A DNA stretch of 37,094 nt. It comes from Planctomycetota bacterium (lineage in GTDB: Bacteria; Planctomycetota; Phycisphaerae; Phycisphaerales; Phycisphaeraceae). Both the position numbers and the translations under genes were made by a program. The notes beneath the pieces are model-generated. The model was not told the origin of the DNA. It made no database searches and saw nothing but the letters and a program-made list of their open reading frames with translations. This document shows positions 1,448 to 37,051 of the stretch, piece by piece. The stretch is from assembly GCA_024279865.1 (NCBI GenBank), contig JAJRRC010000092.1:1-37094 (forward strand), given 5' to 3'. Position 1 is the stretch's first letter; the number at the start of each line of letters is the position of its first letter.

Positions 1448-1483
1448 AACCGGGGGCAGAACCGGGGGCGAACCGGGGGCGAA
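1448..1483. repeat. Intergenic tandem CCGGGGG repeat (three units of 11-12 nt)
   Basis: Three head-to-tail units are seen: aaccgggggcag (12 nt), aaccgggggcg (11 nt) and aaccgggggcg (11 nt). The same core on the other strand (TTCCCCCGG-like) recurs inside two coding regions at about 25951-26005 and 35721-35785, where the units are 12 nt. No function is assigned. Confidence 0.8.
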
Positions 1484-25371: not shown

Positions 25372-26850
25372 CTATTTCAGCAGCCAAGCCAACGCGAACT
25401 CCCAAGACTCATCAAGCGAATCCTTGCGAGACACTTGCAATTCATAACGCCCCGCAGGCAAATGGCGAAGATACACATGTTCCACATTGTCATGTTCACT
25501 CATGGATTCAGCCACGACTTGGCCTTTCCAGTCATACAACACCAAATCAAAATCTGCGAGCCTCGGACGGTTGGACCATACGATTTTTCGTGTCAGGCGA
25601 TCTGAAAAACGACGGCCATCAATCCGACGATGCCACGTCAGCAAAAAAGAGACTTCACGCATGGGCTGATGAATCTCCAAATGCCAGGACTGTGGCTGGC
25701 GAACGGTTGCTTCACCAAAGAACCAACCCATTTTTTTCTGGATCACCGCACCCTCAGGCGAACCTGCCGCGAGCATGGCATAACTTCGATCCACGTTCAC
25801 CACACCTGCGCCCAAATGAGAATCCAACGGATGACCCGGAGAAGCCTTCCATGTGGCGGGCTTGGTCGCACCGCCGAGCAGGACTGCTTTAATCACCTCC
25901 GCACGCGAAGCGTTGGGTATCGGGGTCGGTAGAGAATCCGTGGAAGAAATGGGGGGGAAACCCGGGGGGAAACCGGGGGGGGAACCGGGGGAAAGCTTCC
26001 GGGGGCTGGGATTGCTTTGAGTCTGAACGTCAGATAATGCGAATTCTAAAAGTCTTGCAACCGCAGCAGAAACCACAGGCACTGCAAAACTGGTCAATCC
26101 ACCGGGCGCGACCAAATCGGGCTTACATCGGTTGGCTTCTTCGACGGAGGTCTCTCCGCCGCTGGATCGTCCATCTGCTCGCCCCACGGCAATGAGGTTG
26201 TACCCACTGGCTAAAATGGAAGGGATTGATTTGTCCGGTCCATTGTCCACGCCCACCACTGGAATCACATCATAAATATCCGCCAAATAATCCAGCCGTC
26301 GTAAAATCTTGACTGCCAGGGGTCGTTGATCGTAAGCAATCCAACTGCAATTAATCACACGGCTACCATCAAACAAAGGCGGGCGATTGGTCCGGACACG
26401 CAATCCGCCATCGGTCATCCAATGGCGACTGTCGTAGCATTGAACTTGCGTGATGCCGGGCGCTAAACCGCGTGAGCCGTAGATGACTTTGGCGGTTGCA
26501 TGGGCGTGGCCTGACACTTTGTGGTCCCCGCCACTACGCGGGGAGAAATGAACACCTTTGAATCGTTCTTGTTTGTGGTTTGGGAGATACCCACCATCGA
26601 CTTCGCCCTCCACGTGGGCCACCATGATACCTCGGCCGGTGGGTGTTTTGTTCACGCCCAAACGCTGGGTCAGGGATTCGATCCCTATCCTTTGGCCAAG
26701 TGAGGGGGGCTTTGGCTCAGACTTGGAAGGCAAAGCCTCAGCCATTGCAATCGCAGTTAGTCCCATGACCACCCCACAAATCGAGAGAGAAGCCGTTATA
26801 CGCATTGCGTATTTTTGTTGCGTGTTGAGAGTTTTATTAAGTTTTGTCAA
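25372..26850 (-). CDS. Secreted subtilisin-like (S8 family) protein with atypical catalytic Asp motif
   Basis: A long N-terminal signal sequence (hydrophobic core about residues 19-37, ending AMAEA) precedes a subtilase-like domain. The usual VAVIDTG strand reads GIMVAHVEGEVDGG, so the catalytic Asp position appears to be Glu81, or shifts to Asp85. The His region is SGHAHATAKVIYG, the oxyanion region VVGVDNGPDKS, and the Ser region APGGLTSFAVPVVSAAVARLL. A Pro/Gly loop (about 288-304) comes from a DNA minisatellite. The C-terminal domain (about 385-490) is beta-rich and resembles a pre-peptidase/P-type domain. TTG 26848-26850 is the best start, with GGAG 7 nt upstream; the ATG 15 codons later lacks one. 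It may be an active protease or a degenerate one. Confidence 0.82.
   Translation of the reverse strand: MTKLNKTLNTQQKYAMRITASLSICGVVMGLTAIAMAEALPSKSEPKPPSLGQRIGIESLTQRLGVNKTPTGRGIMVAHVEGEVDGGYLPNHKQERFKGVHFSPRSGGDHKVSGHAHATAKVIYGSRGLAPGITQVQCYDSRHWMTDGGLRVRTNRPPLFDGSRVINCSWIAYDQRPLAVKILRRLDYLADIYDVIPVVGVDNGPDKSIPSILASGYNLIAVGRADGRSSGGETSVEEANRCKPDLVAPGGLTSFAVPVVSAAVARLLEFALSDVQTQSNPSPRKLSPGSPPGFPPGFPPISSTDSLPTPIPNASRAEVIKAVLLGGATKPATWKASPGHPLDSHLGAGVVNVDRSYAMLAAGSPEGAVIQKKMGWFFGEATVRQPQSWHLEIHQPMREVSFLLTWHRRIDGRRFSDRLTRKIVWSNRPRLADFDLVLYDWKGQVVAESMSEHDNVEHVYLRHLPAGRYELQVSRKDSLDESWEFALAWLLK
25951..26005. repeat. Coding minisatellite in the subtilase gene (12-nt units, CCCCCGG core)
   Basis: Three consecutive 12-nt units can be read: gggggggaaacc, cggggggaaacc and ggggggggaacc, followed by a partial gggggaaagcttcc ggggg. 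On the coding strand this gives SPGSPPGFPPGFPP. The unit length is a multiple of three, so copy changes would keep the frame. Confidence 0.8.
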
Positions 26851-27008
26851 TTCAGTCTCCGCGAATCATAAAACGCACCAGTTTTAAACACAATTGGCAT
26901 ACCCATCGGGTATGAGAATGCCCGCGATGAAAACGATTTGAACGCTTAAAACAAGGTGCCACGTCCAAAGGAAAACAGGAAAACTCAACTGCGATTGGTG
27001 TATTGTGT

Positions 27009-35480: not shown

Positions 35481-35680
35481 CCAGCAGGCCACCGTATCGA
35501 ACCCTCTGATTCTCTCCCAAAACAGCCCTGCAAAACCAGATTCCGCCCTTTTTTTAAGCTTTTTGACTCCTCCGATAACTTGTTTGGGACAAAACCCTAC
35601 AGACGGCCCCCCAAATATCCGAAGTTATAGATATGGGACGCTCTGTGGCGTTCAAACTGGCCTCTTGGAGGGAAACGCAG

Positions 35681-37051
35681 ATGCTTCGACGCACAGCATT
35701 TGCAGAAAATCTGAACACCGCCCCCGGAAAGTCCCCCGGAAATTCCCCCGGTCATTCCTCGGGAAAATCTTTGGGGAAATCTCCCGGTGCAATGGGACCC
35801 AGCCTTGTTGCCTTTGCAGCGATGCTGGCTGTGGTGTGGGGTAGTTGCTTGTGGCCTAGAGAGTTCTCTGCCACGGGCAGTCTGGTTCCTCAAGCAGACC
35901 CTCAGCTCACGCAAATCCAAAATGCCCCCTTGCAACAAGCCTTGAGCCAACTGCTCACGCAAAAAATCCCTGCCATCACCACCACCGCTCCTTCGGCCAA
36001 AGAAGCAGCCCATCAGGCCAACCTCGCTCTCCAACAAAAACAACAAGACACGCTGGCCTCGCTGCAACCAGCTCTGACACTTGCTTGGCAACAGCAAAAA
36101 AATTCCTTCGCTCAAACGCAACAAAAAATTCAACAGATCGACCAGCAGCTTGCCCAACTCGCCACTCAAAACCCGCAAGGTTTCACCACCGGTGATCTAC
36201 AACCTCAACGTGATGCGATCAAGGCAACTTTGGCGAAAGCGAATCACAATCTCAAAAAACTCAAACACCAACAGGCCGTCTGGGCCGGTTCAAACCGCAC
36301 GCTGTCGGGTTTGCTCGCTCGTCGAACCTTGCTCACACGGGACCTGTCATTGCATCTGACCAAACTCGGTCGATCAGAAGATCATCCGGTGGTGCGTCAA
36401 ACGCGATCCCAAATTCAAAAGCTACAAGTACGCATTGATGCACTACAAAACGCCACAAACTTAGACGAACATGCTGATCAAAAAATCCACGCACTGGCGC
36501 TAGCCATCACTGCCGCGAAAAAAAACATCACGCAACAACAGCAAACACTCACCACCTTGGCTGCGATTGAAAAATCGCTCGCCCAGATGGCAACCCTGCG
36601 TCCAGAACGACAAGCCTTAATGGCTCAACTTGGCCCGCAAAAAATCCAACTCAAACACCTTGCCACTGCCCTGCGAGGCCAATGGCAGGTTCTTCAAATT
36701 CGCAAAGCAACGCCAGAACAAGCCCAGCTTCTTTCACCAACGCCCCCCCAAGTTGCGTTGATTGCGTGCTTCGTGGGCTTGATGGTTTGGATCAGCATGA
36801 CATACGTCTGCCGTTATTTTGACCAGACCCTCCACAATGCAACCGATGTCAGCGAACAATTGGATTTACCTGTCTTAGGCTGTATTACCGCAAGCCCAAA
36901 ACATCGCTGGTTCAAACCCACGTTAAAGCTGGCCATGGCGGCCGTTCTTATTGTCAGTTTTGGCGTGGTGCATTGGCCTCAGACAATCAAATGGAATCCC
37001 CAGATTCATTCACCGCAGCCGGTACAAACCCAACAGGTGGCCTTGGACTAA
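35681..37051 (+). CDS. Chain-length determinant/polysaccharide co-polymerase (Wzz/GumC-like)
   Basis: This inner-membrane protein is predicted to set polysaccharide chain length with the Wzy-like polymerase. It has a cytoplasmic N-terminus with a GKSPGNSPG-type repeat (about 15-37) and a first membrane helix (about 40-56). A long Gln-rich periplasmic coiled coil (about 80-340) contains a GNVR-like LRPERQALMAQLGPQKIQLKHL segment. A second membrane helix (about 358-380) is followed by the family signature YFDQTLHNATDVSEQLDLPVLGCI. A third hydrophobic helix then follows near 415-432. No tyrosine kinase domain is fused. ATG 35681 is preferred over 35633 because GGAGGG lies 8 nt upstream. It follows the glycosyltransferases after a 200-nt gap with no clear terminator. 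Confidence 0.85.
   Translation: MLRRTAFAENLNTAPGKSPGNSPGHSSGKSLGKSPGAMGPSLVAFAAMLAVVWGSCLWPREFSATGSLVPQADPQLTQIQNAPLQQALSQLLTQKIPAITTTAPSAKEAAHQANLALQQKQQDTLASLQPALTLAWQQQKNSFAQTQQKIQQIDQQLAQLATQNPQGFTTGDLQPQRDAIKATLAKANHNLKKLKHQQAVWAGSNRTLSGLLARRTLLTRDLSLHLTKLGRSEDHPVVRQTRSQIQKLQVRIDALQNATNLDEHADQKIHALALAITAAKKNITQQQQTLTTLAAIEKSLAQMATLRPERQALMAQLGPQKIQLKHLATALRGQWQVLQIRKATPEQAQLLSPTPPQVALIACFVGLMVWISMTYVCRYFDQTLHNATDVSEQLDLPVLGCITASPKHRWFKPTLKLAMAAVLIVSFGVVHWPQTIKWNPQIHSPQPVQTQQVALD
35721..35785. repeat. Coding minisatellite in the Wzz-like gene (12-nt units, CCCCCGG core)
   Basis: Units cccccggaaagt, cccccggaaatt, cccccggtcatt, cctcgggaaaat and ctttggggaaat follow head to tail, decaying toward the 3' side and ending with ctcccggt. 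They encode GKSPGNSPGHSSGKSLGKSPG-like sequence just before the first membrane helix. Confidence 0.8.

Follow-up and report, generated by a model that had tools for sequence, protein, structure and literature searches.

CCGGGGG arrays in the window

The stretch of DNA analyzed here, referred to as the window, is 37,094 nucleotides long and is contig 114 of the genome G000 (3.42 Mb in 122 contigs, 95.7% complete). The initial annotation had reported arrays of CCCCCGG at three loci, and we found them at these positions. We took CCGGGGG (7 nt; complement CCCCCGG) as the core of the repeat and defined the step as the core-to-core distance. Clusters of at least two exact CCGGGGG within 24 nt occurred three times in the window, at 1450-1479, 25962-26005, and 35721-35751, whereas 200 dinucleotide shuffles gave a mean of 0.005 clusters and a maximum of 1. 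The wider coordinates used below (1448-1483, 25951-26005, and 35721-35785) take in decayed units.

The first array (1448-1483, G-rich strand +) is intergenic and has units of 12, 11, and 11 nt, as had been noted. It is flanked on one side by the gene for a UgpC-type ABC transporter ATPase (216-1358, +) and on the other by ORFs on the minus strand. Dispersed short repeats of other kinds also occur in the window, at 1485-1522, 123, 2078, and 26847-26915; one example is TTCGGCCCTGCGGCAGACCTTCGGACTCGG, which follows directly after this array and has a near copy in G000 at about position 33200 of contig C2.

The other two arrays are intragenic. The array at 25951-26005 has its G-rich strand on +, antisense to the host ORF (25372-26850, -), and its protein reading is SPRKLSPGSPPGFPPGFPP. 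The host ORF shows a weak subtilase match (PF00082, residues 161-269, E 9.5e-4, 19 bits, below the cut-off of 21.8), and the array starts near residue 282, shortly past this match. The array at 35721-35785 has its G-rich strand on -, so that the coding strand is C-rich, and reads APGKSPGNSPGHSSGKSLGKSPG. Its host ORF (35633-37051, +) weakly matches a polysaccharide chain-length determinant (TIGR01006, E 4.8e-4, 19.6 bits vs. a cut-off of 296), with the array situated in the N-terminal tail, ahead of the first hydrophobic stretch of the protein. Every readable unit inside genes had been described as 12 nt long. This is true of the array at 35721-35785, where three exact units and then decayed units keep a 12-nt step throughout, but not of that at 25951-26005, where TRF reported a period of 12 over 25951-25991 only and the exact cores are 11, 12, and 14 nt apart, the last step being the one of 14. 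In the totals given below, the array at 35721-35785 is scored as lying between genes because the hexamer gene caller left its ORF out.

Genome-wide family and taxonomic distribution

Further copies had been expected in the genome, and across the whole of G000 two cores are spaced by 12 nt at 298 places and by 11 nt at 36, vs. 1 and 0, respectively, for the reversed motif. Arrays were then counted in two samples. The G000 sample comprised 1,115,608 bases (1.12 Mb), namely the window and 60 further stretches, with 894 genes called by a simple hexamer model; the second sample was 1,181,299 bases (1.18 Mb) of the Phycisphaeraceae isolate SJ709 (G015), which belongs to the same family as G000 but to another genus. 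The G000 sample contained 168 arrays, 99 of them in genes, 68 between genes, and 1 across a gene edge, and the G015 sample contained 160. Array density between genes was 4 to 6 times that inside genes; because the G000 stretches were picked partly where arrays were already known, the density figures cannot be taken as representative of the whole genome. TRF, which does not depend on the core, found 223 tandem loci in the G000 sample, of which 126 hold the core and 150 hold a run of four G or C. Tandem units of at least 7 nt are therefore present at many loci of one genome, as in a dispersed bacterial minisatellite.

Within the family, at least one place with cores 12 nt apart was found in 42 of 51 genomes (range 0-298); the nine without any include some incomplete genomes. 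Numbers differed widely even within one genus, with 176 such places in the family member G052 and 25-43 in the five congeners compared with it. We also scanned a collection of 84,980 genomes, from which close relatives of G000 are possibly omitted, with one three-unit pattern (CCGGGGGNRCTT twice, then the core). Among the 67 stretches returned, 62 carry a label beginning with Phycisphaer; these come from 14 record sets, and 33 are from SJ709. The remaining five are two other Planctomycetota and three unrelated records (Prescottella, Paraburkholderia, and Chlorogloea). Because this pattern fixes an NRCTT spacer, the scan would miss arrays of other groups whose spacers differ.

Ordinary slippage in GC-rich DNA, together with chance, might produce such arrays without any special role of the core. 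Genomes in general often contain short tandem repeats, and each of the Prescottella, Paraburkholderia, and Chlorogloea records has its array within one long ORF. However, when five words were used as controls (one C3G4 and four composed of the same letters as the core), they formed 0-15 clusters vs. 168 in G000 and 2-39 vs. 160 in G015, and the reversed pattern occurred 0-12 times per genome across the 51 family genomes. The concentration of the scan stretches in one taxon also argues against this explanation, which we regard as barely credible.

Reading-frame filter

We counted the steps by their remainder modulo 3 (0/1/2). In G000 the counts were 198/7/10 in genes and 43/41/43 between genes; in G015 they were 111/1/3 in genes and 64/48/32 between genes, the unevenness of the latter being probably due to genes missed by the gene caller. 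Steps that are not a multiple of three thus made up 17 of 215 in genes vs. 84 of 127 between genes in G000, and 4 of 115 vs. 80 of 144 in G015 (p = 1.6e-29 and 1.9e-18, respectively, although the steps of one array are not independent). Within G000 genes, steps of 12 (113) and 9 (60) dominate, and steps of 15, 18, 21, and 24 also occur, whereas the 127 steps between genes are mainly 11 (29), 12 (28), 7 (15), 9 (13), and 10 (12). The proposal that unit length is set by coding context had been made from three loci, which are too few to carry it; the count inside and outside genes over 1.12 Mb suffices. The filter holds, and 11-nt units are not equally frequent within genes, but the steps in genes follow a rule of divisibility by three, not a fixed length of 12.

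A bias is possible in these counts, since an array that breaks the frame would end its ORF and so be scored as lying between genes. When only arrays in genes with a reciprocal-best ortholog in the other genus were considered, the steps were 45/0/2 in G000 and 27/1/1 in G015, and within ORFs of more than 300 amino acids they were 140/5/9 and 97/0/1, respectively. Split genes posing as intergenic regions were rejected as a source of the intergenic arrays: none of the 68 arrays between genes in G000 lies between collinear fragments of one G015 protein, with a match of any kind obtained for only 42 of these regions.

The reading phase is filtered as well as the step length. With one frame counted per array, phases 0/1/2 were used 25/70/4 times in G000 and 27/39/3 times in G015; phase 2 reads Arg, so that the Arg frame is nearly absent from genes (4 of 99 and 3 of 69 arrays, respectively). 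The G-rich strand was sense in 49 and antisense in 50 in-gene arrays of G000, and sense in 44 and antisense in 25 of G015. The frames in use encode linkers rich in Ser, Gly, Pro, Ala, and Thr.

Steps were also counted at loci that had been selected by a 12-nt pattern, a selection that biases the between-gene counts, which accordingly show no flat distribution. In the 13 other record sets (without the 33 SJ709 loci and the 5 stretches not labelled Phycisphaer) they were 63/2/2 in genes and 41/0/2 between; viral loci gave 27/2/0 and 16/7/3; and G052 gave 23/0/1 and 24/1/11, with two arrays (five 12-nt steps) counted double because L290 and L292 overlap.

These peptides raise the question of whether selection favours the linkers themselves (of SGGT, SAPG, or PPE type), the likeness of the DNA following from codon usage. 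The in-gene arrays do encode low-complexity, probably flexible peptides, and the two intragenic arrays of the window lie in a likely loop (25951-26005) and in an N-terminal tail (35721-35785), a placement that also fits the picture of arrays being tolerated there. The higher density of arrays between genes already disfavours a selection for linkers. Furthermore, the two strands encode unlike peptides and both are used in genes, and the 12-nt arrays keep the core nearly invariant at all seven positions. We therefore consider selection for linkers highly unlikely as the origin of the arrays.

A frame filter acting on a spreading repeat can thus be read from sequence alone. Because the repeat has been inserted hundreds of times in genes and in gaps, one genome displays both the raw output, seen between genes as steps spread evenly modulo 3, and what selection passes, seen in genes as steps that are nearly all multiples of three with one phase avoided; with both in the same genome, the strength of the filter becomes measurable. 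The arrays also show how bacterial proteins can repeatedly gain flexible inserts.

Core, spacer, and quadruplex motif

The arrays consist of a fixed 7-nt core and spacers of mostly 0-6 nt, which gives steps of mostly 7-13 nt. Adjacent spacers were identical in 67 of 175 cases, vs. 1.9% of random spacer pairs; neighbouring spacers are thus often copies of each other, which shows that arrays grow by local tandem duplication. The spacers differ between genera. Among 12-nt units, 69 of 141 spacers in G000 and 60 of 87 in G015 fit NRCTT, vs. 1 of 31 in G052 (counted without the L290/L292 double). Since G052 has the core and the 12-nt step with other spacers, the genera share the core and the step and not a fixed sequence.

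Deviation from the consensus of each array was generally lower in the core than in the spacer: 0.7% vs. 6.0% in 44 in-gene 12-nt TRF arrays and 1.1% vs. 4.5% in nine between-gene 12-nt TRF arrays. In some sets this difference was small or absent (5.4% vs. 7.3% in the 11-nt between-gene arrays of G000; 2.2% for both in the in-gene 9-nt TRF arrays of G015). Isolated cores between genes numbered 83 in G000 and 184 in G015, vs. medians of 12 and 110, respectively, for 21 words of the same letters. Inside G000 genes, isolated cores showed no excess over other same-letter words, so that seeds are not visibly enriched there.

The G-runs may fold into quadruplexes, to judge from their sequence. A quadruplex sequence motif (loops of 1-8) is contained in 130 of 168 arrays in G000 and in 94 of 160 in G015; conversely, arrays account for 134 of the 200 motifs in the G000 sample and for 105 of the 595 in the G015 sample.

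These properties bear on the possibility that each array is a functional site at the DNA level, recognized for example by a nucleoid protein, by a factor of recombination or replication, or by a sensor of G-quadruplexes, and is kept by selection, with the step of 11-12 nt corresponding to about one helical turn. A core that varies less than its spacer in most array sets, between genes too, a core and 12-nt step common to genera with different spacers, and the frequent quadruplex motif would all be expected of such a site. On the other hand, the counts of places with cores 12 nt apart vary widely among congeners, and nine of the 51 family genomes, some of them incomplete, have none. The position of the arrays relative to transcription is not stable either: convergent gaps make up 17% of the intergenic bases in each genome and contain 17 of 64 arrays in G000 and 6 of 82 in G015. 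Array positions also differ in the two array genes common to G000 and G015 (see below). We consider a selected DNA site unlikely. A terminator or promoter role was rejected, as the intergenic arrays of G000 and G015 favour no consistent type of gap.

The two ends of the arrays tend to differ, with NAACTT on the 5' side of the G-rich strand and G-runs (e.g., CGGGGG) at the 3' side, and C-runs, which are inverted partners of the core, are enriched 20-60 nt upstream of arrays and not downstream. Opposed pairs of arrays within 150 nt were seen five times among the 168 arrays of G000, with the C-rich arm upstream in all five, and not among the 160 arrays of G015. Some arrays form palindromes with an inverted array 30 nt away, e.g., at C90:18987-19053, C70:8859-8949, and C38:124509-124593 of G000. 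Three intergenic arrays of G000 (C22:8847, C110:8761, and C38:192280) lie inside what appears to be another dispersed repeat, in which CGTACAC precedes the array and CAATCGCGATT follows it, with changes; arrays can therefore ride in, or arise in, other elements. A larger mobile element that carries the arrays was considered on account of the upstream C-runs, the five opposed pairs, and the few arrays in other repeats, but was rejected because most arrays have no such partner.

Probable array gain between genera and congeners

G000 and G015 shared 222 reciprocal best pairs of proteins (median identity 49%), which include 20 array genes of G000 and 19 of G015. Both members had arrays in 2 of the 222 pairs, where 1.7 are expected, and in both pairs the arrays align to different places. 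In the pairwise ortholog alignments the arrays lie mostly in gapped or unaligned stretches. The arrays thus look lineage-specific, and the initial suggestion that the repeat spreads or expands in this genome and is filtered by selection in coding DNA is supported, the spread being inferred from this comparison of genera.

Three loci of G052, obtained through the 12-nt pattern, were compared with the five congeners by net length. For one gene with a 31-nt array, the part of the match that contains the array was shorter by 33, 35, 36, and 39 nt in four congeners, and the fifth had no long match. At the second locus, four congeners were 24 to 66 nt shorter and one was 21 nt shorter over part of the stretch. 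At the third (L289), four of the five were 27 to 69 nt longer and one was 27 nt shorter over part of it; with the congeners mostly longer, this locus gives array gain no support.

Arrays in phage genes

The two-unit pattern was also present in 23 stretches of a viral collection. We compared eight proteins from three of these (L193, L194, and L196) with PHROGs, and seven matched portal, head-protease, tape-measure, or terminase families. Both the portal gene and the head gene of L193 contain arrays with steps that are multiples of three, as do the portal, head, and terminase genes of L194; the two tape-measure genes among the phage proteins examined have no array. Together with L305-L384, these three stretches represent a phage family with homologous portal genes, some with the CCGGGGG repeat; among 80 portal relatives, a set that includes the query's own contig, 10 had an array nearby. 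Judged by the repeat alone, these phages perhaps infect Phycisphaerales.

Rare in-frame insertions were then located in alignments of three phage genes, each built from up to 60 full-length homologs (84, 35, and 44 were found) and excluding L192, L206, and L210 (near-duplicates), L305 (the query's own contig), and L326 (the same contig as L205). Of 76 such insertions, 24 touch CCGGGG or its complement; some insertions are common to relatives, and distinct sites were therefore counted as well, giving 16 of 45. Random intervals of like length touched CCGGGG 2.7 times on average and at most 7 times in 200 draws. The calls shift with the alignment, a version that included L326 giving 28 of 75. Seven of the 24 insertions are three codons long, and some consist of a single core without a neighbour. 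Slippage alone does not explain single three-codon core insertions.

Two near-identical phage pairs (99.8-99.9%) showed no difference in array length. The alignment of L191 with L192, which are 95% identical, has five gaps in 4.6 kb, and three of these fall at CCGGGGG-like sequence.

The single-unit insertions, some of which have like outer letters (e.g., ACTTCCGGGGGC), would suit a dedicated sequence-specific writer, such as a transposase, a reverse transcriptase, or a terminal-transferase-like enzyme with its own template, that inserts core units. The different ends of the arrays and the C-runs enriched on the upstream side only would also be in keeping with such an enzyme. However, a single fixed template could not give spacers that differ from genus to genus, and the candidate enzymes were rejected. 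No reverse transcriptase domain (PF00078) was found in the 95.7% complete G000. Ku, on which an end-joining route would depend, is present in 1 of the 51 family genomes, and none was found in G000. Y1 transposases of the REP/IS200 type are present in 33 of 41 genomes and show no relation to array number by eye. A dedicated writer is thus improbable.

Proposed mechanism

We think it probable that CCGGGGG is a dispersing minisatellite that expands by core-dependent slippage or template switching at G-runs and is filtered by selection in genes. Beyond the dispersal, local duplication, frame filter, and presence in phages described above, expansion driven by the core is what the sequences would suggest. 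The core would be what makes a site expand: a run of five G, often with four runs in a row, could stall or dislocate the replication fork, and slippage or short-range template switching, perhaps via a quadruplex or the CCGG palindrome, could follow. Each event would add one core plus the adjacent spacer, and chance cores or short templated insertions could provide new seeds. Any DNA that replicates in these cells, that of phages included, would be subject to the process in trans, and the arrays would be mainly selfish or neutral, being tolerated where a flexible loop results.

A stronger proposal, which we make tentatively and consider rather doubtful, is that a trans-acting, sequence-specific process in Phycisphaerales goes on writing CCGGGGG units into the DNA of chromosomes and phages alike. 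Such a process would read the 7-nt core only and take the spacer from the site, and new in-frame linker peptides would arise from it throughout the proteome. The arrays raise the question of what makes CCGGGGG repeat in one bacterial order and in some phages.

Relation to known repeats

No description of the CCGGGGG repeat or its like was found among the titles and abstract openings listed by an open-access library. Rickettsia palindromic elements (RPEs) are single palindromic elements of 105-146 bp and, like the CCGGGGG arrays, are small repeats found across one bacterial lineage, both between genes and in frame in conserved protein genes, where they are apparently tolerated (PMC2229807). Presence in frame in conserved genes was indeed found for the CCGGGGG arrays. 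Unlike RPEs, these are tandem arrays of mostly 7-13 nt units that keep the frame unit by unit and mostly have no inverted partner; instead of palindromes of about 100-150 bp with terminal inverted repeats, we found the few opposed pairs described above.

The STRRs of cyanobacteria are heptamers, mostly intergenic, that are dispersed in many copies in the genome. They are short tandem repeats of one bacterial group, as the CCGGGGG arrays are, and have been used for fingerprinting (PMC5088731). The CCGGGGG arrays differ from them in having a fixed core, a free spacer, and steps of variable length, and in that many lie in genes: the commonest steps in G000 are 12, 9, and 11, not 7, and the one cyanobacterial record among the 67 scan stretches has its arrays within one ORF. 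RPEs are nearest to the CCGGGGG arrays in behaviour and STRRs in form, and the arrays fall under neither definition. A second tandem family of G000 consists of heptamers (AGCTATC, AACTGAT, and the like; e.g., C38:143784 and C22:16839), and the 1.18 Mb of G015 contain 67 TRF loci of period 7, including AATGACG (10), AACTCCT (8), and AATCGGC (7).

Intragenic minisatellites and contingency repeats are individual loci with unrelated units. The CCGGGGG arrays resemble them in that unit length in genes is a multiple of three and units are homogenized within an array, but their single core recurs at hundreds of loci, in several genera, and in some phages. CRISPR arrays have repeats of about 25-40 nt separated by unique spacers of like size, whereas in CCGGGGG arrays the steps are far shorter and the spacers are copied. 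What looks like a CRISPR array is present in G000 from C1:72498 to near the contig end, where the listed copies of a 16-mer are spaced by about 66 nt; this 16-mer occurs 26 times in the sample.
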